From Pseudidiomarina sediminum DSM 21906 (lineage in GTDB: Bacteria > Pseudomonadota > Gammaproteobacteria > Enterobacterales > Alteromonadaceae), in the NCBI RefSeq assembly GCF_000423165.1, contig NZ_AUHL01000007.1:124001-188000 (forward strand): DNA of 64,000 nt, given 5' to 3'. Shown piece after piece: positions 6,570 to 43,765 of the stretch (position 1 is the stretch's first letter; every line of letters starts with the position of its first letter). The notes beneath the pieces are model-generated. The model saw only the letters and a list, made by a program, of their open reading frames with translations, did no database searches and had not been told where the DNA came from. Position numbers and translations under genes: made by a program.

Positions 6570-7478
6570 TTAATCTACGCTGATGTCATCGTCAAATAAA
6601 CTGACCAATTGCGGGAAGAAATTATGGATTTCGCTACTCAGCAAGGCAAAGTCGGCATCAATTTTTTCTTCGGCGGTGGCGTCGACCAATTTGTCTTGTT
6701 CGTCCATAAGAATATCGGTCGCTTTGAAGCGCTTAATGGCCATGTCTTGTTCAATCACCATCGTTAAACGCTCAGACCATACTACGGCAAGCTTGGTGAT
6801 TTGCTTGCCATGCTCAAGATGCGCAAGAATTTCAGGGCTGGTGAGCTCGTGGTTTTTACAACGGATAATGCCGCCTTCTTGGGCATCATCCCGTAATTCT
6901 GCTTCGTCGCCAAAATCAAAATCGCCCGGCATGTTGCCTTGCTTCAACCACTGGGTGAAGTAAAGCTCGGTTGGGTTTTCGCTAAACCACGGTTTGACTG
7001 GTAAGGAGCCTAAGCTGCCGCGCAACAAGCCTAGGAAGTCTTCGGCTTGGGTGCTGGCGGAAGCGTCAACGATGACAATACGGTGGTCCATATCGAGCAT
7101 TCCCCACGTCAGTTTGAAGCGGGTAAAGGCCTGCGGTAACAATTGATGCACGAGGTCTTCTTTCATCGACTGCTTTTCTTTGCCAACGACACGCCGACCT
7201 TGTTCGGCTTCCAACGCCTCAATTTGCTCGTCTAGCTGGGCGTTGACGACACTGGCTGGTAATACCTTTTCTTCTTTGCGCGCACAGAATAGGTAGCTTT
7301 GGCCAATTTTATGGAACAGCACTTCGCTGCGTGGGCCAAAAGGCGATGACCAGCCAAAGCTGGCCAGTTCGTTACGACCGCATGGCGTAAACACGTGTTC
7401 TTCAAGCGCTTGCTCGAGGTTGTCCGTTAATTCAAAGTCATCCGCTAACGTATAAATACGCAAATTACGAAACCACAT
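6570..7478 (-). CDS. rdgC: Recombination-associated protein RdgC
   Basis: Ring-shaped DNA-binding protein that limits RecA-mediated recombination and helps chromosome maintenance. The 302 residues (E. coli 303) begin MWFRNLRIYTL and contain the conserved stretch CGRNELASFGWSSPFG, then KPWFSENPTELYFTQWL and LTSPEILAHLEHGKQ. The family has no enzymatic motif. The gene precedes the M49-like lipoprotein and follows the histidine kinase on the same strand (30 bp gap). Confidence 0.95.
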   Translation of the reverse strand: MWFRNLRIYTLADDFELTDNLEQALEEHVFTPCGRNELASFGWSSPFGPRSEVLFHKIGQSYLFCARKEEKVLPASVVNAQLDEQIEALEAEQGRRVVGKEKQSMKEDLVHQLLPQAFTRFKLTWGMLDMDHRIVIVDASASTQAEDFLGLLRGSLGSLPVKPWFSENPTELYFTQWLKQGNMPGDFDFGDEAELRDDAQEGGIIRCKNHELTSPEILAHLEHGKQITKLAVVWSERLTMVIEQDMAIKRFKATDILMDEQDKLVDATAEEKIDADFALLSSEIHNFFPQLVSLFDDDISVD

Positions 7479-7508: not shown

Positions 7509-9254
7509 TTACGCGCGGTCGATCACTTGGATAGGGAGCCTAATGTTATAAGTTAAGCCCTCTTGCGGGGCAGATTTCACGGCAATTTTACCTGTAAATG
7601 TCTGCACCACAAGGTTGTGAATAATGTGCGTGCCAAGGCCGCTACCACCGCTATCACGGCGGGTGGTGAAGAAAGGTGTGAATAATTGCTCGAGCTGCTC
7701 GGAGGTCAGGCCCTTACCGTCATCTTGATAATCAAGGTGTAGCCAGTCGCCATGTTGTGTGATGTCGAGCCGCAGGTGGCCTGCTTGCTCGTCATCAAAT
7801 GCGTGGATCAATGAGTTGAGCACTAAGTTGGTGATGATTTGTGCTAAGGCACCCGCATTACAACGTACTTTTATGCCGTCAGGACAGCTAAAGTGAATTT
7901 GGTGAGGGGTCGCTTTAAAACGCGGACGTAGTGCTTGAATCACGCTTTCCACATAGGTCTTAACCTCAATTTCGCGCACCGCATCAGAGGTTTGGTCGAC
8001 CGCCACTTGCTTGAAGCTGGTTAGTAATTCCGACGCGCGGTTGAGGTTGCTTTCCAATAACCCCGCACTTTCTAAACTAGCCCCCAACAATTCACGCAGT
8101 TGCGCTTCGGTCAGCTGTTTGGACTCTAATGCCGCGCGCATGGCTTCAAGCTTTTCACTCAGCACGCTGGCAGCGGTAATGCCAATACCCAGCGGGGTGT
8201 TCACATCATGGGTAATACCGGCCACCAAGCGACCGAGTGCAGCGAGCTTTTCAGCTTCAATAAGTTGGTCTTGTAAACGTTCAGAGGCGGTCACCGAAGT
8301 TTGCAACTGCATGTTAGTTTCACGCAAGTCTTCTTCGATAATTTTGCGCTGACGAATTTCGCGCTCGAGTTTTTCTTGGCGGCGCTCCAACTCATCTTTG
8401 CGACGCTCTAAGTCGGTTAAGACCTGACTTAAACTTGAGGTTTTGCGCGCAACTTCCTGTTCCAACATGGCGTTTTGCTCGTCACGTTGGCGGTTCGCCA
8501 GTAACAGTTGTTGCTGGGTGCGATGCAAGTCTTCTTGATAATCCTCAAGATTGTCGAGCAACTGGTTATAGGCTTGCTCCAGCATAGTGAACTCGGCATG
8601 CCGATTGCCTTTCAGGTTCAGCCGAGAATGCTCTAAGTCATCTAAGCGGAAATTGCGAATTTGCTGCGTCAAAATATTCATCGGTCGGTTCAGCATGCGG
8701 TTAAACGCCATGGTGAACAGGACAATCAGAAACGTACTTTTGATGATGGCGTTGCCGATAATGAAATAGAGGCTGATCATTAAGCGTTCAATGGCGATAT
8801 CACGGGTCGAGAACAAGGTAACGTCGCCGACATGGTTCAAGGTGCCAGCAAATTCAAAGATGATTGAGGAGTAGTAGCCGAATAGCCCGTCATGTTCGTC
8901 GATCACATAATCTTCAACATCAGCGTCGAGATTGAGTGCACTAATACTCTCCGTGAGCCCGAGTTTGACAATGATGTCACCGCTGTCATCACGAATAACA
9001 ATACCTTCAATGGCTGGAATATTGATCAGGCCCTCGGCAATCGACTCTATTTGAGCATTGTTATATTCCCACAAGGAGCGGGCGACCGAGCTACTAAAAG
9101 TACTGTGTTGGTTTTTGAGCTCCTGCACCAGTTGGTTTTTAGTATCCGAGTACTCGCCCCAAATCTGCACTATGGTCACCAGGGCCGTCAGTGCAAAATA
9201 GACTGACAACACATTGGTTAAAAGTGATTTCGAAATATGGGTCGTGCTCGCCAT
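7509..9254 (-). CDS. Membrane sensor histidine kinase without an adjacent response regulator
   Basis: 581-residue sensor kinase. A membrane segment at about 12-32, a periplasmic sensor region of roughly 125 residues, and a second membrane segment near 158-184 lead into a HAMP-like stretch. A long glutamate/glutamine/arginine-rich coiled coil (about 225-335) follows. The H-box is GITHDVNTPLG with the phospho-acceptor His349; the HDVNTPLG form is typical of HisKA subgroups with a complex coiled-coil linker. The ATPase domain shows LVLNSLIHAF (N box), DDGKGL and GSGLGTHIIHNL. No response regulator gene is next to it. It is divergent from the Pho-type promoter of the lipoprotein gene at 9463. Ligand and partner are unknown. 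Confidence 0.88.
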   Translation of the reverse strand: MASTTHISKSLLTNVLSVYFALTALVTIVQIWGEYSDTKNQLVQELKNQHSTFSSSVARSLWEYNNAQIESIAEGLINIPAIEGIVIRDDSGDIIVKLGLTESISALNLDADVEDYVIDEHDGLFGYYSSIIFEFAGTLNHVGDVTLFSTRDIAIERLMISLYFIIGNAIIKSTFLIVLFTMAFNRMLNRPMNILTQQIRNFRLDDLEHSRLNLKGNRHAEFTMLEQAYNQLLDNLEDYQEDLHRTQQQLLLANRQRDEQNAMLEQEVARKTSSLSQVLTDLERRKDELERRQEKLEREIRQRKIIEEDLRETNMQLQTSVTASERLQDQLIEAEKLAALGRLVAGITHDVNTPLGIGITAASVLSEKLEAMRAALESKQLTEAQLRELLGASLESAGLLESNLNRASELLTSFKQVAVDQTSDAVREIEVKTYVESVIQALRPRFKATPHQIHFSCPDGIKVRCNAGALAQIITNLVLNSLIHAFDDEQAGHLRLDITQHGDWLHLDYQDDGKGLTSEQLEQLFTPFFTTRRDSGGSGLGTHIIHNLVVQTFTGKIAVKSAPQEGLTYNIRLPIQVIDRA

Positions 9255-9360
9255 GCTATCGCTCGCTAAAGATTTGGTTCAGTTTATCGCAACAGCCTAG
9301 AAGCGCAACCGTGCAATGTGCTCAATTCCTCGCCATTAAAGTGTCAGCGAACTGTCACAC

Positions 9361-9416
9361 TTGTCATTAAGTGTTCATATGGGCGTAACGCTGCTGTCAT
9401 ATTTCATCCCTAAAGT
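9361..9416 (+). promoter_or_regulatory. Putative PhoB-dependent promoter of the lipoprotein/receptor pair
   Basis: Four 7-bp elements spaced exactly 11 bp apart: TTGTCAT (9361), TGTTCAT (9372), GCGTAAC (9383) and CTGTCAT (9394). The last ends 10 bp before TAAAGT (9411-9416), a -10-like hexamer. The Pho-box consensus is CTGTCAT direct repeats with 11-bp periodicity. Two further elements, GTGTCAG (9341) and CTGTCAC (9352), are also 11 bp apart but are offset by 9 bp from the main array. The inferred transcript starts about 40 nt before the ATG at 9463. The middle elements are weak matches. Confidence 0.6.
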
Positions 9417-9462: not shown

Positions 9463-10932
9463 ATGAATCGCACTAAAGCTTTTGCTCTGTCAGCCTTAAC
9501 CGCATCATTGTTACTTGCTGGTTGTGGTGGTGACATTAATTTGACCCCAACATCAAATGATAACTCAACCAACAATAATGGTGGCGGCACGGTAGACACT
9601 AACAACTGTGCGTCATATGAATCAGCTGGCACCGAAGTGCGCGGCGAGAAAATCGGTGCAGACTGCGTCTATCCACGCAGCTTCTCAACTCCAGAAAGCC
9701 CATTGCTTGAAGACATTCGTTTGGTGGAATTGCCAGGCGGCGCGCACATCTTCCCGAATGGTTTATACGTGGGTGAGAACACTGAAGTTACTGCTGATGT
9801 AAACCTTGATGGCCCAACCTTGACCATCGATGCTGGCGCAACCTTGGCATTTGAAGACGGTGATGCGTTCATCCGTATCGCTCGTGGTGCCAACATTATG
9901 GCTGACGGTAACCGCAACGCGCCAATCACCTTCACTTCAGTACAAGAACTTGATGGTTTGATCACTGACCCTAACGCACGTGGCTTGTGGGGCGGTGTCG
10001 TTATCAATGGTCTTGGTATCTCGAACAAGTGTGATCAAAACGACCTTGCAAACTGCGTACTTCAAGGTGAAGGCGGCGCTGGTTTCTACGGTGGCGACAA
10101 CAACGAAGACGATTCTGGCTTGATGCGCTACGTGTTGGTTAAGTATGCAGGCTACGAAGTCTCACTTGATAACGAATTGAACGGTATTACCTTCAACACT
10201 GTGGGTTCAGGTAGCACCTTTGAGTACATCCAAGTACACAATAACTTGGACGACGGTATCGAATTCTTCGGCGGCGCTGCGAACGTTAAAAACGTGGTGT
10301 TAACCGGTAACGACGATGACTCGTTGGACTGGGCAGATGGCTGGCAAGGTAAAATTCAGTACATCCTCGTTAAACACGCTGATGACCGAGCGAACCGTGC
10401 TATCGAAGCCGATGGTAACAGCAAAAACAACGACGCTACCCCGTACTCAAACCCGATCATTGCGAACTTCACTTCAATCGGTTCTTTGACCGCAACAGAT
10501 GGCTCGGACGAGTCTGAAGGTGTGTTGTTGCGCCAGGGTACGCGTGGTGCATTGTATAACTTCATTATCACTGATGCGCGTGGCGAGTGTTTGGAAATCG
10601 ACCAAGACGCCACCTTAGCCAATGCTGCCAACGGCGACTTGACCATGTCGAACTCAGTCATCGCATGTCACGAAAACTTTAAAGATGTTGATGCACAGAA
10701 CTGGTTCCAGGCAGATGCTACCAACGTCACTTTGGATGAAAACGCAACCACGTTGATGTCTGGTTACGTTACGGCTAGCGAATTCAAAGACGCATCAGGC
10801 GCTCCAGTGACTGTTACTGCGAAGTCTGATTTGAGCAGCATCGACCCGTTCTTCGATGACGTTGATTTTGTCGGCGCGGTAAGCGAAGACAACGATTGGA
10901 CCAATGGCTGGACCGTAGGCCTGCGCGACTAA
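9463..10932 (+). CDS. Surface or periplasmic lipoprotein with predicted right-handed beta-helix
   Basis: 489-residue protein starting MNRTKAFALSALTASLLLAGC, so a lipoprotein (Cys21), followed by an Asn/Thr/Gly-rich linker. The body has short hydrophobic-turn repeats such as PTLTIDAGATLAFEDGD and GLWGGVVINGLGIS, then GSTFEYIQVHNNLDDGIEFFGG and VKNVVLTGNDDDSLDW. These resemble parallel beta-helix proteins often found beside TonB-dependent receptor genes. Many acidic Asp/Asn/Gly turns could bind metal or a phosphorylated ligand, which is inference. The ATG at 9463 has GGAG 6 bp upstream; the frame opens earlier at 9361 without support. It is 70 bp upstream of the receptor gene and probably co-transcribed. 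No catalytic motif was recognised. Confidence 0.78.
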   Translation: MNRTKAFALSALTASLLLAGCGGDINLTPTSNDNSTNNNGGGTVDTNNCASYESAGTEVRGEKIGADCVYPRSFSTPESPLLEDIRLVELPGGAHIFPNGLYVGENTEVTADVNLDGPTLTIDAGATLAFEDGDAFIRIARGANIMADGNRNAPITFTSVQELDGLITDPNARGLWGGVVINGLGISNKCDQNDLANCVLQGEGGAGFYGGDNNEDDSGLMRYVLVKYAGYEVSLDNELNGITFNTVGSGSTFEYIQVHNNLDDGIEFFGGAANVKNVVLTGNDDDSLDWADGWQGKIQYILVKHADDRANRAIEADGNSKNNDATPYSNPIIANFTSIGSLTATDGSDESEGVLLRQGTRGALYNFIITDARGECLEIDQDATLANAANGDLTMSNSVIACHENFKDVDAQNWFQADATNVTLDENATTLMSGYVTASEFKDASGAPVTVTAKSDLSSIDPFFDDVDFVGAVSEDNDWTNGWTVGLRD

Positions 10933-11002: not shown

Positions 11003-13636
11003 ATGAAAAAGCAGGCTGTTTTAACTCACAGTAAACTGGGCTTGGCGATTGCGCTTGCATTGTCGAGTACAGTTGCGCAAGCCCAACAACAAGACGCCTC
11101 GGCAGCCGATGCTGCGATTGAAGAGGTGGTCACTACAGGAACGCGTTTGCAAGGCTCTGCTGCTGCCGTTGTTGAAGAGCGCAAAGCACAAGCTTTTGTT
11201 GCAGATATTCTTGGCGCAGAGCAAATTTCGCGCACCGGTGATAGTGATGCAGCGTCAGCGTTGCGTCGGGTGACCGGTTTGACCCTTGTTGATGGTAAAT
11301 TTATTTATGTTCGTGGTCTTGGTGAGCGTTATTCAAGCACGCAATTGAACGGTGCTTCAGTACCATCGCCAGATCCGACCCGTAACGTCATTCCTCTTGA
11401 TATGTTCCCAGCGAGCATTATCGAGAGTATGTCGGTGCAAAAATCGTACTCACCGGATATGCCAGCCAACTTTGGTGGTGGTAACGTTGATATTCGTACG
11501 GTTTCGATTCCGACGGATGAAATCTTTGATATCTCTATTGGTACTGGCTGGAACTCAAACTTTAGCGATGACGGTTTAAGCTACTCAGGTGGTGGTGATG
11601 ACTGGATGGGTAAAGATGATGGTACCCGTGCGTTGTCGCCAGAAATGTTGAGTGCGCTGGCGCGTTATCAAGAGTCGATCAACAGTGCGAGCATCGCCAG
11701 TTTTGAAGGGATCTCGATTGCCGAAGCTAACGAAATTAACCGTCAGCTCGCAGCGTCGATGAACACCGAAAACGAAGTGTACACTGAGTCAATGAAACCT
11801 GACCTGAAAGGCTCGTTGACCTACGGTAATAATTACGATTTAGGCAGTGATTTTACCTTTGGCTTCCTCGCTGGTGTGGATTACGACACGGGCTGGTCAA
11901 ACAGTGAAACGACCGAGAAAGTGCTAGGTATTGCCAACAGCGAGACGGTGATCAACCAAGCGAGTGAAAGTCGCGTCACCACTCAGGATGTTGAAGTAAG
12001 TGGTTTGTTGAATTTCGGTTTACAGTGGGGCGATTACCACCGCGTTGAAACCTCGACCATTTTCTTGCGTAATAGCTCGGACCGCGTTGAGCGAGGTGGC
12101 ATTGAAACGCCTAACTCGATTGATGAAGCGAACTTAAGCTACTACGACACGGACATTCGCTACGAACAGCGCGAGTTGTTGACCAACCAAATTCGTGGTT
12201 CACATTACTTCCCTGAGCTTTGGGGTTTTGCGTTGGATTGGCAATACGCTGATTCACGCGCCACCCGTGATGCGCCAGGTGAAGTGTTCTATCGCCAAAT
12301 CAATGACCGTGACTTGGGTGATGGCGTTGGGAACCTAGCCTTCCAGCAAACCCGTACCGCGACCACCTTGCAGTATCAGATCTTAGAAGATGATGCGCAA
12401 GACTGGCGCGTTGATGGTGAATTGCCGTTGTACTTTGGTGGCATGGAAGTGCTGGTCAAAGGTGGTGGACAAGTATCGAAGAAAGCGCGTTCGTCGTTTT
12501 CACGTCGTTTCGCTATCAGTGCTGAAGGTGTTGCCAACGAAGCCTTGCAAAACGTTGGCTACAACGACCTGTTCAGCGATGCCAATATCTTAGATGGTGA
12601 CTTTGGTTTGTCGTTGTTCGGTGCGCCAACAGCAACCGACCCGAACTACCTCGCGGCACAACAAGTTGAAGCGGGTTACGGTCTTGCCGATATCCAGTTG
12701 AACAGTGACTGGCGTGTCAGTGGCGGTTTGCGTTGGGAGCAGTACACCCAAGTCGCCGCGCAGCTTGATATTCGTGACATGACCATGATTGGTGATATCG
12801 AGAACGCTGGCCGCATTGAAGATGACGTGTATGGTTCGTTAGCACTTACTTATCAGCTGAATGACGAAATGCAATTGCGCTTCGGTTACGGGAGTACGGT
12901 TGTACGTCCGGATTTGCGTGAGTTGACAGAGGTTATCTTCGTTGACCCAATCACCAACTTTAAAGTACGTGGTAACAGTGAGTTACTGACCACTGACATC
13001 GATAACTTTGATGTCCGTTGGGAATGGTACTTACCGTCTGGCGAAAACTACTCGGTAGCTATGTTCTACAAAGACTTGGCGAACCCTATCGAAGCCGTTG
13101 AAGCTAAGGGTACTGACTCGGATCGCGTGATCACCTTCTTGAATGGTCAATCAGGTGAAGTCTATGGTTTGGAATTTGAGTTCCTTAAAGACTTAACCAG
13201 TATTGCTGATGGTTTGTTCTTGTCAGGTAACTTCACGTTGTCTGATTCGGAAATCAGCATTGCCAACACCGGTAACGTCGAGTTGACGAATAACACGCGT
13301 CGGATGACGGGCCATTCGAAGTACGTGACCAACTTACAGCTAGGTTATGACTCGTTAAATGGTGAACATAGTGCCTCGTTGATCTATAACGTTGCCGGTG
13401 AACGGATTGCGTTCGCTGGGGTCAAACAAGGTGAGATGGGCATTGACGATGCGTTTGAGCAACCGTTCCACAGCTTAGACTTTGTTTACACCTATTACCC
13501 AGACTTCAACTCGAAGTTGAAGTTTAAGGTGCAAAACATGCTTGGTGAAGATGTTGAGATTGAGCAGAACGATCGCTTGATTCAGACCCGTACGGTTGGC
13601 ACAGGGATTAGCCTCGAGTACAGCTACTCATTCTAA
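11003..13636 (+). CDS. TonB-dependent outer-membrane receptor
   Basis: 877 residues with a Sec signal peptide ending near AQAQ (about residue 28). A short TonB-box-like EEVVTTGTR is followed by a plug domain with the hallmark YVRGLGERYSSTQLNGASVP and a GGGNVDIRT strand. A beta-barrel runs to a C-terminal aromatic ending (LEYSYSF), as needed for BAM insertion. It is distinct from the two Oar-like receptors in this window because it lacks the N-terminal carboxypeptidase-regulatory-like domain. It follows the beta-helix lipoprotein, which may be its surface partner, and precedes the TonB2-type operon (with the channel gene between). An ACGGAGC ribosome site precedes the ATG. The substrate cannot be read from sequence; the context suggests a phosphorus source. 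Confidence 0.9.
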   Translation: MKKQAVLTHSKLGLAIALALSSTVAQAQQQDASAADAAIEEVVTTGTRLQGSAAAVVEERKAQAFVADILGAEQISRTGDSDAASALRRVTGLTLVDGKFIYVRGLGERYSSTQLNGASVPSPDPTRNVIPLDMFPASIIESMSVQKSYSPDMPANFGGGNVDIRTVSIPTDEIFDISIGTGWNSNFSDDGLSYSGGGDDWMGKDDGTRALSPEMLSALARYQESINSASIASFEGISIAEANEINRQLAASMNTENEVYTESMKPDLKGSLTYGNNYDLGSDFTFGFLAGVDYDTGWSNSETTEKVLGIANSETVINQASESRVTTQDVEVSGLLNFGLQWGDYHRVETSTIFLRNSSDRVERGGIETPNSIDEANLSYYDTDIRYEQRELLTNQIRGSHYFPELWGFALDWQYADSRATRDAPGEVFYRQINDRDLGDGVGNLAFQQTRTATTLQYQILEDDAQDWRVDGELPLYFGGMEVLVKGGGQVSKKARSSFSRRFAISAEGVANEALQNVGYNDLFSDANILDGDFGLSLFGAPTATDPNYLAAQQVEAGYGLADIQLNSDWRVSGGLRWEQYTQVAAQLDIRDMTMIGDIENAGRIEDDVYGSLALTYQLNDEMQLRFGYGSTVVRPDLRELTEVIFVDPITNFKVRGNSELLTTDIDNFDVRWEWYLPSGENYSVAMFYKDLANPIEAVEAKGTDSDRVITFLNGQSGEVYGLEFEFLKDLTSIADGLFLSGNFTLSDSEISIANTGNVELTNNTRRMTGHSKYVTNLQLGYDSLNGEHSASLIYNVAGERIAFAGVKQGEMGIDDAFEQPFHSLDFVYTYYPDFNSKLKFKVQNMLGEDVEIEQNDRLIQTRTVGTGISLEYSYSF

Positions 13637-13767: not shown

Positions 13768-15045
13768 ATGATGCATGATGATCTTCAAGAAACCGTAGAC
13801 TCCGTCCAACAATGGCTCGTTGAACGTCCCGACATGGACATGTTGGTACACTTGGTTTTGTTGCTGCTTGGTGCGTGGCTGGCGAACTTCATCGTCAAAA
13901 AAGTCCTCCTACGTGGTTTGTTGAGCCTCTTAGATTACACGCCTGCGGGTAAAGACCGACAAGCGATTGAGCGTAATATCGTTGCGCGACTGGCCAATGT
14001 CGTGCCGGCCTTTGTCTTAGCGTTTGGCATTAAGACAGTACCGAACGTCGGTGAAACACTTGCCACTGTGGTAGTGAATGTCAGTTTTGCCTTTATGGTG
14101 ATTACTGTGGCAAGGGCGTTGAGTGGCTTTTTGACCATTGTTAATACCGTCTATGACCGCAAACCTGACGCCCACTTGCGTCCGATCAAAGGCTATATTC
14201 AGGTCGCTAAAATTGTCATTTACACGGTTGCGACCATTCTCATGGTGGCAGCACTAATTGATAAGTCGCCCGTGATTTTACTCTCGGGTCTTGGTGCCAT
14301 GGCCGCGGTGTTGTTACTGGTATTCCAAGACACCATTTTGAGTTTAGTCGCGAGTGTGCAAATTACCTCGAACGATATTATTCGTGTCGGTGATTGGGTG
14401 GAGATGCCAAACCTCAACGCTGACGGTGATGTGATTGATATTGCCCTGCACCAGGTGAAAGTGCAGAACTGGGATAAAACCATCACCTTTATTCCAACCC
14501 GTCGTTTTATTAATGACCCGTTTAAAAACTGGCGCGGCATGCAAGAGTCGGGTGGGCGTCGGATCAAGCGCAGCCTATTGCTCGACCAACAAAGCTTGCA
14601 CTTTATGAGTGACGATGAGTTGCAAGCAATGAAGCGCTTTCGCTTACTGAAAGATTATCTTGCCGAGAAGCAAAAAGAGATTGATGAGTGGAATCAGGAA
14701 TTGCGCGAGGCCGGTAAAGAGCCGGTAAATACCCGTCGCATCACCAATATCGGCACTTTCCGAGCCTATGTGAAAGAGTATTTGAAGCATCATGCTTCGG
14801 TGCATCAGAACATGACCTTAATGGTGCGTCAGTTGAACCCAACCGCCGACGGTTTGCCGTTGGAAATCTATTGTTTCACCAATACCACCGCGTGGACGGA
14901 GTATGAGGCGATTCAATCAGATATCTTTGATCATCTGTTGTCGATCTTGCCAGAGTTTGGCTTGCGCGTGTTCCAACACCCAAGCGGTATTGATATGCGC
15001 GAGATGACACGAAACTTACATGAAACTGGCACAAAAGATTCATGA
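13768..15045 (+). CDS. ybdG: Mechanosensitive channel of the MscS family, YbdG type
   Basis: 425-residue inner-membrane protein aligned end to end with E. coli YbdG (415 aa), a small osmotic-shock channel. Several membrane helices lie in the first 200 residues. The pore-helix region LLSGLGAMAAVLLLVFQDTILSLV is diagnostic, then the beta domain GDWVEMP, DGDVIDI and QNWDKTITFIPT, and the C-terminal GGRRIKRS, MTNIGTFRAY-like and NMTLMVRQL segments. Two ATGs stand in tandem (13768, 13771) with no clear Shine-Dalgarno preference. It sits between the receptor's terminator and the Pho-type promoter of the next operon, so it appears to be its own transcription unit. Confidence 0.9.
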   Translation: MMHDDLQETVDSVQQWLVERPDMDMLVHLVLLLLGAWLANFIVKKVLLRGLLSLLDYTPAGKDRQAIERNIVARLANVVPAFVLAFGIKTVPNVGETLATVVVNVSFAFMVITVARALSGFLTIVNTVYDRKPDAHLRPIKGYIQVAKIVIYTVATILMVAALIDKSPVILLSGLGAMAAVLLLVFQDTILSLVASVQITSNDIIRVGDWVEMPNLNADGDVIDIALHQVKVQNWDKTITFIPTRRFINDPFKNWRGMQESGGRRIKRSLLLDQQSLHFMSDDELQAMKRFRLLKDYLAEKQKEIDEWNQELREAGKEPVNTRRITNIGTFRAYVKEYLKHHASVHQNMTLMVRQLNPTADGLPLEIYCFTNTTAWTEYEAIQSDIFDHLLSILPEFGLRVFQHPSGIDMREMTRNLHETGTKDS

Positions 15046-15100
15046 TGACATAAAAGTGACATAAACCAGTCACGAACCTGTCACAGAACTGCCGTATCTT
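15045..15100 (+). promoter_or_regulatory. Putative PhoB-dependent promoter of the TonB2-type operon
   Basis: Four boxes with strict 11-bp spacing: ATGACAT (15045), GTGACAT (15056), CAGTCAC (15067) and CTGTCAC (15078). After exactly 10 bp comes TATCTT (15095-15100) as -10. The spacers are AT-rich for the first two. This is one of the most regular arrays in the window and lies 37 bp before the first ATG of the operon. The first box begins at the stop codon of the ybdG-like gene. Confidence 0.75.
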
Positions 15101-15136
15101 GCACACCATCATTCATAACGTGTGCAGGGTGTTTCC

Positions 15137-15910
15137 ATGAAACCAAGTTTCGCTTACGCATTGGTGTTTGCAGGTATGCTTGCAAGCAGCAATGCGATGG
15201 CACAGGAGCAGGCGCTAGAGCCTGTCGTTGATGCCGCCAACGAAATTAATCAATCCGCTCGCTCATCGCAGCTTACCGTCGATAAAATCGCTGATTCGAC
15301 GCAAGAACGGATGCAGCAATACAAGCAAATCAATCGCCAGATTGAGGGCCTTGAAGTTTATGTTCAACAGCTCGAGCGTCAGTTGCAATCGCAACAGGTC
15401 GAACAAAACGAGCTGAGCGCTTCTATCGATGAAGTGAGCGTGGTGGAACGTCAAATCACCCCGTTGATGCTACGTATGATCAACAGCCTCGATACCTTTA
15501 TTGCCCTTGATGTGCCTTTCTTAAACGAAGAGCGACAGTCGCGTTTGGCCAGCCTTGAAGAGCTCATGGATCGTGCCGACGTTGATGTGTCTGAGAAATT
15601 CCGTCGGGTCATGGAAGCGTACCAAATTGAAGCTGAGTATGGTCGCACCATCGAAGCTTACAACGGTGAAATGGAACTGGCCGGTCAAACCCAAGAAGTT
15701 GAGTTTTTGCGCGTAGGTCGTACGGCGTTGATTTATAAAACCCGTAATGGCGACAGCATGGGTGTTTGGAATCAGCAGCAACGTGAATGGCAACCGCTGG
15801 ATGCAAGTTATAAAAACGGCATTCAAGAAGCGTTGCGCGTCGCACGTAAACAGTTGGCACCAGACTTATTAATGCTGCCAATTTTTGCTAACGCCCAGGC
15901 AGGAGAATAA
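15137..15910 (+). CDS. DUF3450 periplasmic coiled-coil protein of a TonB2-type system
   Basis: 257-residue exported protein: signal peptide through about residue 23 (SNAMAQ), then a predicted coiled coil (KQINRQIEGLEVYVQQLERQ) and a globular C-terminal half containing GRTALIYKTRNGDSMGVWN. This matches DUF3450 proteins encoded directly upstream of ttpC-exbB2-exbD2-tonB2 in Vibrio, Shewanella and relatives. The role is probably to assist or brace the TonB complex in the periplasm; the biochemical function is not established. The ATG at 15137 is preferred over a GTG at 15122. It is the first gene of a six-gene operon, 3 bp before ttpC. Confidence 0.85.
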   Translation: MKPSFAYALVFAGMLASSNAMAQEQALEPVVDAANEINQSARSSQLTVDKIADSTQERMQQYKQINRQIEGLEVYVQQLERQLQSQQVEQNELSASIDEVSVVERQITPLMLRMINSLDTFIALDVPFLNEERQSRLASLEELMDRADVDVSEKFRRVMEAYQIEAEYGRTIEAYNGEMELAGQTQEVEFLRVGRTALIYKTRNGDSMGVWNQQQREWQPLDASYKNGIQEALRVARKQLAPDLLMLPIFANAQAGE

Positions 15911-15913
15911 CCC

Positions 15914-17269
15914 ATGATGAAGCTTAAACATTGCCTCAGCGCTCTTGTTTTATTAATGACCGCGCCTGTGCTTGCACAAGAACCGGTGAACTTGGATCAA
16001 TTGTTGCAACAGTTGAAAGAAGGCAAGTTCGCGCAATCACAAGAAAACCAAGCGCGTGAAGCGCGTTTTCGTTCGCAAGCTGCCGAGCAAGAACAAATTC
16101 TACGTGACGCTATTGCCAAGCGTGACCGTTTAGAAGCGCTAAGCTCACGTTTAGAAACTGAGTTTGAAGCGAACGAAACAGAATTGGCGAACTTAGAAGA
16201 TGCGTTAACGCAACGCATGGGCTCGCTGAAAGAGTTGTTTGGTGTGTTGCAGCAAGTCGCCGGTGATACCGCCAGTAACCTGCAAAACTCGTACGTGTCA
16301 GTTGAGTATCCAGGCCGTAGCGAACAATTAAGCGACTTGGCGCAAAAGATGGGCTCAAGCGCGAAGTTGGCCAGTATCGAAGAAATTGAGTCGGTCTGGT
16401 ACGCCCTTCAGCAAGAGATGACGGAGTCAGGCAAAGTAAGCAAGTTTGACACTACCGTAACCTTGGCCAGTGGCGAGAAAGTAACAAAGCCTGTGGTGCG
16501 TGTCGGTACTTTCAATATGGTTGCTGACGGCAACTACTTGGAGCTTATCCCTGGCACCGACGCGGTCGCAGAATTGGTGCGTCAGCCCGGCAGCCGCTAT
16601 CTGTCAACGGTCGAAGCTCTGGAAGCTGGTGACAAAAGCCCAGTACGTTTTGCGCTTGACCCAACCGGTGGTTCGATTCTTGGTTTGCTCGTACAAGCAC
16701 CTAGTATCGGTGAGCGTATCGACCAAGGCTCAACGGTTGGTTACATCATTCTTGGCCTCGGCTTGATTGGTCTGCTGATTGCCCTTGAGCGTTTCGTTAC
16801 CTTGACCCTAATGGGTGGCAAAGTGAAGCGTCAGCTGAAGCAGCAAAAAGCCCAGCAAGACAATCCACTTGGCCGTGTCATGTTGGTGCAGGACAAATAT
16901 CCGAACGCTGACACTGAAACGCTCGAATTGAAATTGAGCGAAGCGATCTTACGCGAAGTACCGAAGATCACGCGCAACTTAACCTTTATCAAGATTATCT
17001 CTGTGGTCGCCCCTCTGCTCGGTTTGTTGGGTACGGTGACCGGTATGATCAATACCTTCCAAGCGATTACCTTGTTTGGTACGGGTGACCCGAAATTGAT
17101 GGCCGGCGGTATCTCGCAAGCCTTGGTGACCACGGTACTTGGCTTGGTGGTAGCGATTCCGATGACCTTGTTGTTCGCAACGCTGAACACGCGTAGTAAG
17201 AACTTGGTGCACGTACTGCAAGAACAAGCGTCTGGAATTATCGCGGAGCGCTCTGAGCGAGGTCAGTAA
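15914..17269 (+). CDS. ttpC: TtpC-like MotA/TolQ/ExbB proton-channel protein with long periplasmic domain
   Basis: 451 residues. A signal peptide (to about 21, VLAQ) and a charged coiled-coil periplasmic half (about 25-270) precede a MotA/TolQ/ExbB domain. Its membrane segments are YIILGLGLIGLLIALERFV, VVAPLLGLLGTVTGMINTF and LVTTVLGLVVAIPMTLLFA. This architecture defines TtpC, the extra component needed by Vibrio TonB2 systems to energise outer-membrane receptors. The gene overlaps exbB by one base (TAATG), showing translational coupling. Confidence 0.88.
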   Translation: MMKLKHCLSALVLLMTAPVLAQEPVNLDQLLQQLKEGKFAQSQENQAREARFRSQAAEQEQILRDAIAKRDRLEALSSRLETEFEANETELANLEDALTQRMGSLKELFGVLQQVAGDTASNLQNSYVSVEYPGRSEQLSDLAQKMGSSAKLASIEEIESVWYALQQEMTESGKVSKFDTTVTLASGEKVTKPVVRVGTFNMVADGNYLELIPGTDAVAELVRQPGSRYLSTVEALEAGDKSPVRFALDPTGGSILGLLVQAPSIGERIDQGSTVGYIILGLGLIGLLIALERFVTLTLMGGKVKRQLKQQKAQQDNPLGRVMLVQDKYPNADTETLELKLSEAILREVPKITRNLTFIKIISVVAPLLGLLGTVTGMINTFQAITLFGTGDPKLMAGGISQALVTTVLGLVVAIPMTLLFATLNTRSKNLVHVLQEQASGIIAERSERGQ

Positions 17270-17802
17270 TGATGATGTTCTTTATCGACTTTTACAGTGC
17301 GATTCAGGACTTTGTGGAAACCGGTGGGCAGGTATTGCTGGTCATCGGGATCCTCATCTTCATCATGTGGTTAATGATTCTGGAACGCATTTTTTATTAC
17401 AGCCGGGGTCATCAAAGTGAGAAGCGTCGTGTACTGGATACATGGCAGCAACGTGCGGACAAGTCGTCATGGAATGCTGAGCAAATTCGCCAAGCCATGA
17501 TCTCTCGCGTGACACTCGCACTTGGTGGTCGGTTACCGGTGTTACAAGCACTGGTTGCGCTGTGCCCATTACTTGGTTTGATGGGAACGGTTACCGGAAT
17601 GATTGAAGTATTTGATGTGATGGCCGTAGCAGGTACGGGGAATGCGCGCTCGATGGCCGCCGGGGTGTCGAAAGCGACCATCCCAACCATGGCCGGTATG
17701 GTCGGTGCTTTGTCAGGCGTGTTTGCGACCACCTGGTTACAACGTACGGCGAAGCGTGAGCGGTTAAAACTCGAAGACCGCATGTTAATGGAACATCACT
17801 AA
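17269..17802 (+). CDS. exbB: ExbB-type proton channel subunit
   Basis: 177-residue inner-membrane protein of the MotA/TolQ/ExbB family, the short ExbB2 type. A membrane segment near 20-40 is followed by a cytoplasmic loop and two further helices with LCPLLGLMGTVTGMIEVF and ATIPTMAGMVGALSGVFATTW. It forms the proton-conducting pentamer with ExbD that drives TonB. Two in-frame ATG codons follow the first; the first overlaps the ttpC stop and is preferred. It is followed by exbD after 12 bp. Confidence 0.92.
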   Translation: MMMFFIDFYSAIQDFVETGGQVLLVIGILIFIMWLMILERIFYYSRGHQSEKRRVLDTWQQRADKSSWNAEQIRQAMISRVTLALGGRLPVLQALVALCPLLGLMGTVTGMIEVFDVMAVAGTGNARSMAAGVSKATIPTMAGMVGALSGVFATTWLQRTAKRERLKLEDRMLMEHH

Positions 17803-17814
17803 TAGGGCTGAGTT

Positions 17815-18222
17815 ATGAAACAACATTTTGCCAATTTGATTGACGAAGAAGAAACGCAAATTGATATGACGCCGATGCTCGACGTGGTGTTCATCATGTT
17901 GATCTTCTTTATCGTGACCGCAACCTTCGTGAAAGAAGCTGGTATCGATGTAAACCGCCCAGAAGCGGCAACTGCGGTGCAAAAAGACCGCGCTAATATT
18001 TTGGTCGCGATCAGTGACTCGGGTGAGATTTGGATCAACAAGCGTCAAGTTGACGTGCGTGCGGTGCAAGCCAATATTGAGCGTCTTTATGCAGAGAACC
18101 CACAAGGTTCAGTGGTGATTCAAGCCGACAAAAAAGCGACCACGGAAACCCTAATTAAAGTCATGGACGCTGCGCGTGCTGCGGGTGTGTTCGACGTTTC
18201 AATTGCTGCACAGGATGATTAA
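17815..18222 (+). CDS. exbD: ExbD-type biopolymer transport protein
   Basis: 135 residues with a single N-terminal membrane helix. The key aspartate in the family motif IDMTPMLDVVFIMLIFF is present, and a periplasmic domain ends LIKVMDAARAAGVFDVSIA. It couples the proton motive force to TonB with ExbB. It is tightly packed, with tonB 3 bp downstream. Confidence 0.94.
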   Translation: MKQHFANLIDEEETQIDMTPMLDVVFIMLIFFIVTATFVKEAGIDVNRPEAATAVQKDRANILVAISDSGEIWINKRQVDVRAVQANIERLYAENPQGSVVIQADKKATTETLIKVMDAARAAGVFDVSIAAQDD

Positions 18223-18225
18223 ACC

Positions 18226-18831
18226 ATGCGTTTGTTAGCTGCATTAGTTACCGCCGCACTGGTTACCTTAGGGCTGTTCTATCTGATGCAGTCGTTCATC
18301 AGTGGCGGGGAGGGCGCGATGTCTGAACCGCCAAAAGGCAGTGTTTTGGACTTCGTGCGGGTCAAACCTGAAGAAGTGGTGCAAGAAAAAGAGCGCAAAC
18401 CACAGCGTCCACCTGAGCCAGAGCAGCCGCCAGCGGATTTACCGCAGCCCCAAATGGATAGTAGCGACATTGATCCAAGTGCGGGTGGCTACGATTTCTC
18501 GGCGGTCGGTCAAGCGGACACGGGCTTGTCGGGTGGTATGAATCTTGATGCCAGCGATGGTGAGTACTTACCTATCGTAAAAGTGCAAGCGGCTTATCCT
18601 CGCCGTGCGCTCCAGCGTGGCATTCAAGGTTACGTCGTGGTGGAGTTCACGGTGACCAAGCAAGGCACAGTACGCAATCCGCGGGTTGTGGACGCTGAGC
18701 CGGAACAGATTTTTGACCAAGCAGCAATGGACGCTGTATTGAAATTTAAATACAAGCCTCGGGTCGTCAATGGTGAGACGGTGGAAGTAGAAGGCGTACA
18801 AAACCGAATTACCTTCGAGATTGATGGTTAG
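18226..18831 (+). CDS. tonB: TonB energy-transducing protein
   Basis: 201 residues: an N-terminal membrane anchor (about 4-24), a proline/glutamate/lysine-rich periplasmic spacer (QRPPEPEQPPADLPQPQ) and a TonB C-terminal domain (YPRRALQRGIQGYVVVEFTV ... AVLKFKYKPRVVNGE). It carries energy from ExbBD/TtpC to TonB boxes of outer-membrane receptors. The spacer is short, as in TonB2-class proteins. Regulation is inferred from the Pho-type promoter upstream of the operon. Confidence 0.95.
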   Translation: MRLLAALVTAALVTLGLFYLMQSFISGGEGAMSEPPKGSVLDFVRVKPEEVVQEKERKPQRPPEPEQPPADLPQPQMDSSDIDPSAGGYDFSAVGQADTGLSGGMNLDASDGEYLPIVKVQAAYPRRALQRGIQGYVVVEFTVTKQGTVRNPRVVDAEPEQIFDQAAMDAVLKFKYKPRVVNGETVEVEGVQNRITFEIDG

Positions 18832-18841
18832 GAGAACAAAC

Positions 18842-20104
18842 ATGCGTAAACTGATGCTACTGGCAAGTGTAACTTTACTAGCGTTGCTACCTTCATTGAC
18901 GGCATTCGCGCAGGACACTAAGCGCGTTCCGGCGTTGCGTGAACAAGTTTATTCGCAATTGGCGCGCGCCCAGGAATTGGCTGATGCCGGTGATGTTGAT
19001 GCGGGGCTTGCTGCGTTGAAAAACGTCGAGAGCAAACTCAGTAGCATGAACAGTTACGAGCGTGCCATGCTGTGGAACTTCTACGGTTACATGTATTACG
19101 GCAAGGACCGCATTGGCGAAGCAATCACTTACTTCGCCAAGGTTGTTGACGAAGATCCTATTCCTGAAGCGTTGCAGCAAAACACCTTGTTTAGCCTAGC
19201 GCAGCTCTCCATGGGGCAGGGTGAATACCAACATGCGCTCACCTACCTTGATCGCTGGCAAGCCATTGTCGGTGATGAGAATGCCAGTAAAGCCGATGTG
19301 TTGCGGGCTCAAGCGCTGTATCAGAAAGGCGATTATCAGCAAGCCTTGGCGCCGATCAAACGTGCTATCGCCGCAGCTGAAGCAAAAGGTGAAGTGGGTG
19401 ATGAGAACTGGTACGTCTTGCAGCGCGCCTTGCACTATGAGCTTGAGCAGCCAGAGCAAATCGCCGCGATTCTTGAGCGCATGATCAAGCATTTCAACAA
19501 GCCTGAGTATTGGGTGCAGTTAGCCGGCGTATACGGACAGCTGGGCCAAGAGAAGCAACAGTTGGCAATGCTCGAAGCGGCTTATCAACAGGGCTTCTTG
19601 GAAAAAGGTCAGGACTTCCAAATGTTGGTGCAAAGCTACTTCTTCGCAGGTATTCCTTTTAAAGCGGGTCAAGTGATGGAATACGCACTTGCGCAAGAAA
19701 TTCTGCCAGCGGATTTACGTAACCTGAAGTTGTTAGCGCAAAGCTGGATTGCCGCCCGTGAAACCGATAAAGCGGTGGACGCGCTCGAGCGTGCCGCGGC
19801 CTTAAGTGATGACGGCGAGCTGGACGCGCAGCGTGCGCAAGTATTGTTGAACGCTGAACGTTATAGCCAAGCCATCGTGGCAGCTCAGCAAGCGTTAAAG
19901 AAAGGTAATTTAGATAAACCAGGTACCATGCACCTTGTGATTGGTATGGCTGAATTGGAACAAGAAAACTATAATCCTGCGTTACAAGCGTTTGCGCGAG
20001 CGAAAGCTTTTGAAGATGCGCGTAAAGCAGCGGCACAGTGGGAACGTTTCGCAGCCTCAGAAAAGCAGCAAGCAGAACGGATGAAGGAACTGGTTTCGTC
20101 ATAA
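18842..20104 (+). CDS. TPR-repeat periplasmic protein closing the TonB2-type operon
   Basis: 420 residues from the ATG at 18842 (AGGAG 8 bp upstream); the frame opens at 18821 inside tonB. A signal peptide ends near AFAQ (about residue 24). The rest is made of alpha-helical repeat pairs of the tetratricopeptide type, for example MLWNFYGYMYYGKDRIGEA, and LLNAERYSQAIVAAQQAL. TPR proteins of this type end TonB2 operons in Vibrio and Shewanella, where they are thought to assist the complex. The molecular role is unknown. Confidence 0.82.
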   Translation: MRKLMLLASVTLLALLPSLTAFAQDTKRVPALREQVYSQLARAQELADAGDVDAGLAALKNVESKLSSMNSYERAMLWNFYGYMYYGKDRIGEAITYFAKVVDEDPIPEALQQNTLFSLAQLSMGQGEYQHALTYLDRWQAIVGDENASKADVLRAQALYQKGDYQQALAPIKRAIAAAEAKGEVGDENWYVLQRALHYELEQPEQIAAILERMIKHFNKPEYWVQLAGVYGQLGQEKQQLAMLEAAYQQGFLEKGQDFQMLVQSYFFAGIPFKAGQVMEYALAQEILPADLRNLKLLAQSWIAARETDKAVDALERAAALSDDGELDAQRAQVLLNAERYSQAIVAAQQALKKGNLDKPGTMHLVIGMAELEQENYNPALQAFARAKAFEDARKAAAQWERFAASEKQQAERMKELVSS

Positions 20105-20147: not shown

Positions 20148-20181
20148 GAGTCATGAAATTGTCATAAAAGTGCCATAAGCT
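20148..20181 (+). promoter_or_regulatory. Putative PhoB-dependent promoter of the porin gene
   Basis: Boxes GAGTCAT (20148) and TTGTCAT (20159) are 11 bp apart; 10 bp later comes TAAGCT (20176-20181) as a -10 candidate. A third box-like GTGCCAT (20170) continues the 11-bp phase and overlaps the -10. Another CTGACAC lies at 20140, out of phase. Confidence 0.6.
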
Positions 20182-20241: not shown

Positions 20242-21177
20242 ATGGCAATCAAAAACAACGCTTGGATGATGTTGCTGCTGCTGGTAAGCGGTTCTGCAGT
20301 TGCGCAACAAGAAGAAACCTCAGGGATAGATTTTTACGGTCGTGCAAATGTATCGTTGCAGAGCAACGATAATGGCGACGGCAGCGAAACAGAGCTGGAA
20401 AGTAACTCCTCACGGGTTGGCGTCAAAGGTTGGCAGCGCCTGAACGATGATCTCGACGTTATTTTTCAACTCGAATGGCAAGTCGATCTCACTGACTTAG
20501 GCGGTGACGACAATTTAAAGTCGCGAAATCAGTTCATTGGTTTGCGCGGTAATTTCGGTGAATTAACCGTTGGCCGGCGCGATACCGTGTTGAAAACCAT
20601 GCAAGGCGATATCGACCAGTTCAGCGACTATGAAGCTGATGTAAAAGCCTTGTTCGAAGGCGAAAACCGTCTTAACAACACCATTTCTTATTACTCTCCG
20701 AGCTTTGCCAACGTCCGCTTTGCCTCGAGCATTATTTTGAGTGAAGGCGATACCCAAGATGACGGCTACTCCTTAGCCGTGACTTATGGTGATACCAAGC
20801 TCAAAGCTACGCCGTATTATTTTGGGGCGGCGATGGATCGCGATGTTGATGGTTATGACATTGAGCGCTTAGTGGGTTACACCAAAGTTGCTGACACTAT
20901 GTTTGGTTTGATGTGGCAACAAGAGCAAGCGGTGGATGGTACTAACGAAGCCGATGGTTTTGTCGCCAGTGTGAAACAAGACATTGGGCAATTTAGCCTT
21001 AAGGCGCAATACCAAATGATGTCGTTTACTGCCGGTGATGACGACTCGATTGCACTGGGTGTGGACTATCACTTCACCAAAGAAACTCGGGTTTATGTTT
21101 GGTACACCGGACGTGATTTGGACACGCGCGATGCCGAGCAAAGCTATGTTGCCGTGGGTATTCGTCATAGCTTCTAA
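20242..21177 (+). CDS. Small Gram-negative porin, probably phosphate-starvation induced
   Basis: 311-residue outer-membrane beta-barrel. The signal peptide is cleaved near AVAQ (about 22), then comes the general porin pattern GIDFYGRANVSLQSND, NSSRVGVKGWQRL, FIGLRGNFGELTVGR and NNTISYYSP. It ends in a terminal Phe (VAVGIRHSF) for BAM recognition. It is smaller than classic trimeric porins (about 340-370 aa). It has its own Pho-type promoter and leader hairpin and stands directly after the TonB2-type operon. Specificity for phosphate or nucleotides is inference. Confidence 0.88.
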   Translation: MAIKNNAWMMLLLLVSGSAVAQQEETSGIDFYGRANVSLQSNDNGDGSETELESNSSRVGVKGWQRLNDDLDVIFQLEWQVDLTDLGGDDNLKSRNQFIGLRGNFGELTVGRRDTVLKTMQGDIDQFSDYEADVKALFEGENRLNNTISYYSPSFANVRFASSIILSEGDTQDDGYSLAVTYGDTKLKATPYYFGAAMDRDVDGYDIERLVGYTKVADTMFGLMWQQEQAVDGTNEADGFVASVKQDIGQFSLKAQYQMMSFTAGDDDSIALGVDYHFTKETRVYVWYTGRDLDTRDAEQSYVAVGIRHSF

Positions 21178-43300: not shown

Positions 43301-43644
43301 TCAAGCTGGGCGTTTAAGCGGAAGGTTTCACCTAACTTCAAGAAGACTTCTGAGTACTGCGCATCTTGATACACATCAGAATCTAAAGTGATACGGTATG
43401 GACCGCCGACACGCAAACCGCTGGCGATGAAGTTACCGTTTGCATCGGTCATAACTTGGGTGCGCGAACCTGAAGGAACGTGCTCAATCACTACTTTAGT
43501 GTTGGCAGCACCGTTACCTTGTGGACCGAGAATTTCGCCTCGCATAGATGCCGAGGTGTCTTGTGCTACTGCTGCTGTTGAGGCCAAGCCTAGAGCAACC
43601 GCGATAGCACTAGCTGTGCGCGAAAATCGCAGAGATGTACTCAT
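40399..43644 (-). CDS. Oar-like TonB-dependent receptor (copy 2), putative Pho-regulated
   Basis: 1081-residue outer-membrane receptor: signal peptide to about residue 27 (AAVAQ), carboxypeptidase-regulatory-like domain (SMRGEILGPQGNGAANTKVV) and a plug with NNPKYNSITVDGIAQNDDF. The long beta-barrel ends WQAKIGVRYRF. It shares the layout of copy 1. On its upstream side is a Pho-type promoter with the proper -10 spacing, shared with the divergent nuclease-like lipoprotein gene, and phoBR follows that gene. The likely task is TonB-driven uptake during phosphate limitation; the ligand is unknown. Confidence 0.9.
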   Translation of the reverse strand: MSTSLRFSRTASAIAVALGLASTAAVAQDTSASMRGEILGPQGNGAANTKVVIEHVPSGSRTQVMTDANGNFIASGLRVGGPYRITLDSDVYQDAQYSEVFLKLGETFRLNAQLDQGNVERISVTGQAINYAQLNNGSSSSFGEEQIQSLPTYGRDLKEIVRLNPLATQLGDGDQLVVAGNNPKYNSITVDGIAQNDDFGLNSNGYPTQGSPISIDAIAQLNVDVMPFNAKDSNFTGAKVNAVTKSGTNEFDTSLFYQYTSDSLAGDPSRSIYDEEAGVPAVDYSEKTFGVGVGGPIIEDTLFFYVNYEKSDETNAPYRGPKGSAASNDSNVTQEQIDEVIRIAKEVYGLTDAQLGDWNRSTEENDEKLLVKLDWNISNEHRAAFTYQHTTGNSIRGHYGNDGSISLSSNWYDNEQTLNAYALQLYSNWSANFSSDIKLSYKEVEALQEPLNGRSIGEITVQVDNNRNEVNFGPDYSRHANYGDNSTFEFQANGEYLLGDHALGFGYMYSSTDIYNLFVQNALGSWQFWSLENFANKQANRFYYAGSLTGDLNDAAADFTQGQQAFYIQDTWAPTWDLELTFGVRYERIFAKDKPTYNPLFAERYGFANTENLDGKDLILPRFGFKYQLTDDTKLRGGFGRYGGGRPNVWVSNSYTNSGMAFSQFNTSSLPSSAYLNDVDPANVPDIVQGALTQDGYVNAIDPDFELPTDWRASLAVDFERFDIPMLGEDWFASLEYIYSRRKDDVQWVDLARRPLLDSEGNVVTTADGGRIIYVVDDPLDDHTPMGIGDDNGVERYDLMLTNGDGGSSKIFTTTLGKAWDNGLSLRMSYTNQDIEEAVAGSSSTAVSNFRYPVTIDPNNVEAGTASYMVEHRLMADLTYRTELFSGYQSTFGLFWERYSGRPWGYAYNTYRFNGFGDQSQFDSTPRYLPYIPTGADDPNVLYSGGLDYDTLAVYLAEAGLDQYAGGYAPRNTRRAPWTTNLDFKYTQEIPGLFNDHKGELYINVRNLIAIFDKDAGQKHVLPYGDNVREIVAVDLDDEGRYIYSAPYNSGDRFDAINSAPTRYQPERSTWQAKIGVRYRF

Positions 43645-43731: not shown

Positions 43732-43765
43732 TTTATAACACTTGTTTATGTCATAAATGTGACAG
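43732..43765 (-). promoter_or_regulatory. Putative PhoB-dependent promoter of Oar-like receptor copy 2
   Basis: Read on the minus strand: CTGTCAC (43765-43759), 4 bp, ATGACAT (43754-43748), then exactly 10 bp and TATAAA (43737-43732) as -10. On the plus strand the same boxes read ATGTCAT and GTGACAG and could also act on the divergent nuclease gene, but no -10 stands at the proper distance there. Confidence 0.65.

Follow-up and report, generated by a model that had tools for sequence, protein, structure and literature searches.

A six-gene TonB2/TtpC operon with a conserved PhoB-type promoter is a candidate energiser of phosphorus uptake in Pseudidiomarina sediminum and related marine bacteria

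In a 64,000-nucleotide stretch of the Pseudidiomarina sediminum DSM 21906 genome (contig NZ_AUHL01000007.1, positions 124,001 to 188,000; hereafter the window, whose own coordinates are used throughout), we found that a complete six-gene TonB2/TtpC operon at 15137-20104 on the forward strand is preceded by a tandem PhoB-type promoter that most orthologous operons keep. The operon is likely to be a PhoB-controlled TonB2/TtpC energiser for phosphorus uptake across the outer membrane. Control by PhoB had been proposed in a sequence-only reading of the window; as a computational inference it is supported here, and it is strengthened by linkage of the operon to phoBR-pstS and to genes for a lipoprotein and a TonB-dependent receptor (TBDR). 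Most work on TonB motors has concerned iron, B12 and glycans, and the common view is that phosphorus passes the outer membrane via porins such as PhoE and OprP. Many Alteromonas/Idiomarina-related marine bacteria appear to have a phosphate-starvation motor of a type best known for iron.

A complete TonB2/TtpC operon behind a tandem PhoB-type array

The operon had been read as DUF3450-TtpC-ExbB-ExbD-TonB-TPR, and all six genes were found, open and with their domains confirmed, on the forward strand: ttpB (15137-15910; DUF3450, PF11932, E=9.4e-88), ttpC (15914-17269; a DUF3450-like N-terminus and a MotA/TolQ/ExbB (MotA_ExbB) domain in the domain scan), exbB (17269-17802; PF01618), exbD (17815-18222; PF02472), tonB (18226-18831; TonB_C, PF03544) and ttpD (18842-20104; a TPR protein in the domain scan). 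This is the ttpB-ttpC-exbB-exbD-tonB-ttpD order expected of TonB2/TtpC six-gene systems, and the tonB product is the top of five TonB_C matches in the genome. Among the best 80 of 384 loci, the closest TtpB relatives belong to Pseudidiomarina and Idiomarina.

Upstream of ttpB, four 11-bp PhoB-type repeats, ATGACATAAAA, GTGACATAAAC, CAGTCACGAAC and CTGTCACAGAA, start at 15045, 15056, 15067 and 15078 (15045-15088, forward strand), and the -10 hexamer TATCTT (15095-15100, forward strand) lies exactly 10 bp past the last repeat when counted from its 7-bp core CTGTCAC. Both the exact 11-bp steps and the 10-bp spacing had been claimed, and the earlier operon and promoter positions proved right at every coordinate checked. 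The array thus shows the tandem 11-bp direct repeats with a TGTCA-type core that characterise Pho promoters, and the genome encodes both PhoB (45145-45831, forward strand; TIGR02154, 365.5 bits against a cut-off of 296.2) and PhoR (45852-47159, forward strand; PF11808). A scan with a PhoB weight matrix, proposed earlier as a check, was run over either strand of the window with a matrix built from E. coli sites, and it ranked the array as the top match for both three and four repeats. A simple core pattern, GWCAY at 11-bp steps, was compared with 20 Markov-resampled windows: its four-repeat form matched once, at the array, and its three-repeat form twice, in overlapping matches both at the array (resampled mean 0 for each), while two repeats occurred 9 times against a resampled mean of 2.55. 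Across the whole 2.62-Mb genome the three-repeat core without mismatches gave exactly two matches, both inside the array; with at most one mismatch it does not discriminate, because 11 matches were found against 8 for the reversed control. The matrix rank, the resampled windows and the genome-wide uniqueness at zero mismatches reject a chance array. Boxes serving another gene were rejected too, as the MscS-like gene on the same strand ends at 15045 and the site showed no recognisable divergent gene. A second PhoB-type array of three 11-bp units (15004-15036, forward strand; three-unit score 21.8), absent from the earlier reading, lies within the 3' end of that MscS-like gene. Its register is shifted by 8 bp from that of the main array, and it may be either inert or a more distant PhoB site.

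The same geometry had been described before pstS and pstC. It is fully present before pstC (48335-48368, forward strand; CTGTCAT, 10 bp, TATAAT at 48363-48368); before pstS (47202-47235, forward strand; CTGTCAC, 10 bp, TAAACT) the spacing holds, but the -10 is weaker.

Conservation of the promoter in orthologous operons

Every one of the 147 genomes searched in the same GTDB family gave a TtpB match. Close orthologues were defined by E<1e-70 and found in 112 genomes; beyond the gap, where the best genome reached 1.8e-56, the matches were taken as more distant paralogues. Promoters were scored with the PhoB matrix over 300 bp upstream, with a three-unit score of at least 12 as threshold and dinucleotide shuffles as control. 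In a 70-locus set (70 of the 112 orthologue genomes, own locus included; the 30 best matches and 40 chosen mainly to add genera), 60 of the 70 promoters reached the threshold against 1.3% of shuffles, and 38 of 40 genera had at least one such promoter. In an 80-locus set (the best 80 of 384, with many close relatives and an overlap of uncertain extent with the first set), the threshold was reached by 76/80, against 0.9% of shuffles. Within the family, by contrast, 0/21 loci of TtpB paralogues reached it, and elsewhere in the class 0/20 TtpB loci of other families did (three from one genome, some cut by contig ends), so that the array as an inherited trait of all TtpB loci was rejected. At one outside locus (L150), adjoined by a lipoprotein/TBDR pair, a site with the right spacing was seen by eye with a score of only 9.6.

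The periodicity was also visible without any motif. Self-matches in orthologue upstreams numbered 175 at lag 11 and 116 at lag 22, with 25-72 at the other lags from 6 to 29; in the 21 paralogous upstreams they numbered 14 and 11, with 4-23 at the others. TGTCACA was the commonest 7-mer in orthologue upstreams (48 regions), and matches to the -10 hexamer (at least 4 of 6) peaked exactly 10 bp after the last core, in 63% of promoters compared with 0-17% at 25 other distances. Absence of the boxes from relatives had been set beforehand as a result that would speak against PhoB; the boxes, the 11/22-bp periodicity and the -10 spacing were all kept.

In a quick TtpC tree, the close orthologues (53 rows) fell on one side of a branch with a Shimodaira-Hasegawa-like approximate likelihood ratio (SH-aLRT) support of 100, separate from the 21 rows of paralogues and the 18 of outside loci. 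This grouping of orthologues had been set by TtpB similarity, independently of the promoter, and its named members come from Idiomarinaceae, Alteromonadaceae, Colwelliaceae and Pseudoalteromonadaceae. The family paralogues formed three clusters (L210 and L212; L209, L211 and L213-L215; L116 and 13 others), none with Pho boxes (0/21).

Linkage and co-occurrence with Pho/Pst and lipoprotein/TBDR genes

Synteny was counted as same-strand matches at 120 loci, some of them cut by contig ends. TBDR genes were present at 74, the lipoprotein at 72, phoB or phoR at 48 and pstS at 46; any Pho/Pst match or the lipoprotein was present at 87, a count in which an isolated PstB match could stand for a different ABC ATPase. 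Most Alteromonas loci read phoR-pstS-lipoprotein-TBDR-ttpB-ttpC-exbB-exbD-tonB-ttpD on one strand, with phoB ahead where the stretch reaches that far. Several Idiomarina loci have the TonB operon followed by porin, transporter, phoB, phoR and pstS; the window and part of Pseudidiomarina have lipoprotein, TBDR, an MscS gene and then the operon; and one Pseudoalteromonas locus has the lipoprotein and TBDR downstream of the operon.

Across the 147 genomes, 111 contained both the close TtpB and the lipoprotein, 1 TtpB alone, 10 the lipoprotein alone and 25 neither, where absence of the lipoprotein means that a genome lies outside the 121 listed with a match. The lipoprotein thus occurs in 111 of the 112 genomes bearing the operon. 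In eight of the ten lipoprotein-only genomes the stretch was read; PhoB/PhoR-like genes were present in 7/8, and 6/8 lipoprotein upstreams scored at least 12 in a scan without shuffled control. Only synteny and co-occurrence support a dedicated role of the unit.

A lipoprotein/TBDR pair as the likely client

The window pair consists of a lipoprotein (9463-10932, forward strand) and an adjoining TBDR (11003-13636, forward strand; Plug and TonB_dep_Rec), the latter a probable client of the TonB unit. Weaker PhoB-type repeats with irregular spacing precede the lipoprotein (9330-9371, forward strand; 13.3 for three units). The 489-aa lipoprotein carries a lipobox whose Cys C21 is invariant in 13/13 aligned members, and this feature together with the adjoining TBDR gives the layout of an ElpS-type pair. 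It looks ElpS-type on the basis of gene layout and published reports rather than of a sequence comparison with ElpS. Its predicted structure is strand-rich (mean predicted local distance difference test score, pLDDT, 85.6; residues 1-44 disordered) and probably a parallel beta-helix: 207 matches at E<=10 came from a fold search, none at E<=0.001, and most of the 50 listed are, judged from their names, parallel beta-helix proteins, namely glycan-active enzymes and phage tailspikes. The protein has no Pfam family and no match in NCBIfam; Pfam on the 13 members gave one weak lipid-attachment match, in 1/13. Against sequences of solved structures, only two matches were found for the lipoprotein (E 0.45-0.47, in the signal-peptide region) and none for the TBDR.

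A profile search of the phylum found the lipoprotein family in 18/200 genomes, and in stretches from other genomes the homologue was paired with a TBDR in 9/10. Two of these stretches had type II secretion system (T2SS) genes beside the pair: T2SSC in L275, and GspD, GspE and a prepilin peptidase in L276. In many Alteromonas (L069, L079, L093, L099) the lipoprotein open reading frame (ORF) upstream of the TBDR is about 930 aa long, and the window protein matches it twice, as expected of a tandem duplication. In two genomes belonging to different families (L272, L280), the neighbourhood of the ElpS-type lipoprotein/TBDR pair includes tryptophan-halogenase-like genes.

A second, divergent TonB operon lineage

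A divergent operon in one further genome (G508) comprises DUF3450, TtpC (34% identical), ExbB/ExbD/TonB-like and TPR genes followed by a TBDR and an ElpS-type lipoprotein, and it opens with a Pho array. The divergent TtpB was found in 9/41 genomes of the family of G508, all of one genus, and an array scoring at least 12 preceded it in 8/9, with G642 as the exception, in a 530-bp scan without shuffled control. In five stretches read, a TBDR lay downstream in 5/5, the lipoprotein was present in 3/5, a PhoB relative (52-53% identity) was encoded divergently in 2 and pstCAB relatives were found in 1. The TtpC of this lineage is a single row on a very long branch in the tree, so that its placement is unsure; we suggest that the lineage may have a separate origin. 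G508 has two divergent TtpB copies (L278, L279), both 100% identical to the query and with identical promoter scores, and the lipoprotein gene of the second copy lies about 15 kb off rather than beside its TBDR match.

Discussion

We lean towards the view that the Alteromonas/Idiomarina/Pseudoalteromonas/Colwellia group has a complete, self-powered outer-membrane phosphorus importer, made under phosphate starvation and often encoded in one island, that combines PhoBR, lipoprotein, TBDR, its own TonB2-type motor and Pst, and that such coupling to a private motor is recurrent. The coupling would be recurrent rather than an oddity because a module of this kind, built around a divergent TonB operon, occurs in a second lineage of Gammaproteobacteria. 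It is established for the family that PhoR phosphorylates PhoB under phosphate scarcity. In P. sediminum, PhoR would likewise phosphorylate PhoB at low phosphate, and phosphorylated PhoB dimers are predicted to occupy the four tandem half-sites and bring RNA polymerase to the -10 that lies ten bp further on. The six genes would then supply an inner-membrane ExbB-ExbD-TonB motor with TtpB, TtpC and TtpD as accessories, by analogy with Vibrio. TonB may drive phosphate-starvation TBDRs, the neighbouring ElpS-type lipoprotein/TBDR pair first and probably also a Pho-promoted receptor at 40399-43644. These receptors would import a phosphorus substrate whose size or dilution makes porins inadequate, for instance an organophosphate, a nucleotide or polyphosphate, and phosphate freed in the periplasm would enter via PstSCAB. 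If this is true, abundant marine bacteria spend proton-motive force on importing phosphorus compounds across the outer membrane, the ElpS-type lipoproteins and one TtpB/TtpC/TtpD clade acquire a testable function, and candidate marker genes become available for organic-phosphorus use in P-poor oceans.

The signature IPR011050 denotes the pectin-lyase fold. In Flavobacterium johnsoniae, Fjoh_0545 (a TonB-dependent transporter, TBDT) and Fjoh_0546 (lipoprotein FII, IPR011050) are described as phosphate-starvation-induced and placed in a phoBR cluster, and the FI/FII/FIII lipoproteins as similar to the low-phosphate-inducible lipoprotein of Caulobacter crescentus (PMC8115612). The window pair resembles Fjoh_0545/0546 and the PusCD complexes in joining a TonB-dependent protein and a lipoprotein; F. 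johnsoniae belongs to another phylum, and ExbB has 0 occurrences in the main text of that paper (PMC8115612). In Caulobacter, where phosphate-starvation-induced TBDTs are known (PMC11208175), ElpS (CC0170) is described as a phosphate-starvation lipoprotein secreted by the T2SS, with the TBDR CC0171 adjoining (PMC2996285). The pair here likewise joins a lipoprotein to an adjoining TBDR, and the two homologues beside T2SS genes repeat the Caulobacter layout (PMC2996285); unlike the operon here, no TonB motor is mentioned with ElpS in the available text of these papers (PMC2996285, PMC11208175).

Among TonB motors, the tonB2 operon of Vibrio vulnificus (ttpB2-ttpC2-exbB2-exbD2-tonB2-ttpD2) has the same six components in the same order (PMC6957404). 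Unlike this iron-regulated siderophore system, the operon here has a Pho array, no Fur enrichment and frequent phoBR-pstS linkage. Vibrio TonB3 also has six TonB2-like proteins, with an outer-membrane receptor gene in its operon, and is reported as unable to replace TonB1 or TonB2 for siderophores (PMC6957404); unlike the operon here it is under Lrp and CRP, according to the title of a reference in that paper. In Pseudomonas aeruginosa PUMA3, exbB2D2-tonB4 is described as transcribed from PphdA, which has a Pho box and needs PhoB and sigmaVreI in low phosphate (PMC4971064, PMC7035377). PUMA3 thus resembles our case in having PhoB-dependent TonB motor genes at low phosphate; it differs in needing sigmaVreI, in its setting among phdA/pdtB and PA0696-PA0701, and in that Ttp genes are not named in the text available, where its TonB system, adjoining two-partner secretion genes, is called still uncharacterised (PMC4971064, PMC7035377). 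PhoB-dependent TonB motor genes (P. aeruginosa PUMA3) and phosphate-starvation-induced TBDTs (Caulobacter, Flavobacterium) are therefore already known. The apparent novelty is that a TtpC-type motor of six genes sits immediately behind a putative Pho promoter, conserved across a large marine clade and often with phoBR-pstS and its receptor pair; among the results listed by a literature search of openly accessible papers without their supplements, none described TonB operons under PhoB control in the Alteromonas/Idiomarina group.

Several observations weigh against a PhoB-controlled, dedicated unit. Orthologous promoters fell under the threshold at 10/70 and 4/80 loci, and two genera (g14 and g19) had no member reaching it. 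The matrix score alone is non-specific, because upstreams of other ORFs in the 80-locus set also scored at least 12 in 99/1155 cases (at least 16 in 52/1155); the highest-scoring of them largely precede porin, lipoprotein and pstS/phoB-like genes, which are other likely Pho genes. In some promoters, that of the window operon among them, the script placed the anchor for the -10 count one unit too far. Lipoprotein promoters are weaker, at least 12 in 41/68 group-1 and 14/20 extra loci in a wider scan without shuffled control. Two Alteromonas loci (L098, L104) lack the lipoprotein/TBDR pair beside the operon, and Idiomarina lacks the lipoprotein within the loci read. The Fisher p of 4e-19 for co-occurrence ignores shared ancestry and so overstates the significance, and a client can be served by another TonB, since 10/147 genomes have the lipoprotein without the operon. 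Four further TonB_C matches in the 2.62-Mb genome leave the exclusivity of the operon TonB unproven. PhoB motifs can, moreover, be inert, as intragenic E. coli sites indicate (PMC10294691).

We consider it unlikely that the unit, although PhoB-controlled, is a general-purpose spare energiser that under phosphate stress boosts the TonB supply to every receptor, those for iron and carbon among them. The five TonB_C proteins could share clients, the ten genomes that keep the lipoprotein without the operon fit such sharing, and V. vulnificus TonB1 and TonB2 are described as redundant for several siderophores (PMC6957404), but the operon frequently neighbours phoBR-pstS and one specific TBDR/lipoprotein pair, the second lineage has the same TBDR type directly downstream of its motor genes, and co-occurrence with the lipoprotein is near-obligate. 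Still less probable is a Pho-induced TonB unit for signalling or secretion, such as ElpS-type surface display or cell-surface signalling, rather than import. PUMA3, with motor genes under PhoB and sigmaVreI beside two-partner secretion genes (PMC4971064, PMC7035377), and the secretion of ElpS by the T2SS (PMC2996285) would favour it; among 30 window proteins scanned, a subset of the window genes, neither a sigma/anti-sigma pair nor a secretion gene was found, the partner is an ordinary Plug and barrel receptor, and pstS is linked.

OmpR-family sites in general are tandem repeats with a pitch of about 10-11 bp. The repeats could on this ground be bound by another regulator of the family, or be non-functional like the many intragenic and inert E. 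coli PhoB sites, most sites in that genome being intragenic (PMC10294691), but this we regard as very improbable, as the letters are those of the PhoB core TGTCA, with TGTCACA the commonest upstream 7-mer, the same geometry occurs before pstC, the -10 spacing is conserved and the genes often lie beside phoBR-pstS. Least credible of all is an iron-responsive, Fur-controlled TonB2 system like that of Vibrio, whose promoter would only look Pho-like. It could claim the six-gene order shared with V. vulnificus tonB2, an operon with a putative Fur box that responds to iron limitation by induction (PMC6957404), and Fur/iron control had been named in advance as contradicting PhoB; however, Fur matches in the promoter of the window operon reached 10 of 19 at best, and the 70 orthologous loci averaged 11.34 against 11.36 in Markov-resampled controls, with at least 14 in 1/70. 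Fur control was rejected by this crude consensus test, which gave no excess in the 21 paralogous loci either.

Other Pho-type promoters and neighbouring genes in the window

Directly past the operon, a PhoB-type array of three units (20148-20180, forward strand), found in the matrix scan and carrying one mismatch to the genome pattern, precedes an outer-membrane porin (20242-21177, forward strand; Porin_4 in the domain scan) that likely belongs to the same regulon, which places a passive channel beside an active system. The porin promoter scores high in many relatives, and the porin lies beside the operon in many Idiomarina/Pseudidiomarina loci. The Pho-promoted receptor considered above as a further client is a second TBDR (40399-43644; OMP_b-brl_4 and CarboxypepD_reg), preceded on the reverse strand by a Pho-type promoter with exact spacing (43732-43765; CTGTCAC, ATGACAT, 10 bp, TATAAA); it adjoins a divergent Exo_endo_phos gene (43860-45059). 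Upstream of the lipoprotein, a histidine kinase (7509-9254) has a CHASE5 match just under the cut-off and is a possible extra sensor. This kinase and its neighbouring gene (6570-7478) stay beside the island in Idiomarina/Pseudidiomarina, and a homologous kinase adjoins phoB in many Alteromonas loci.

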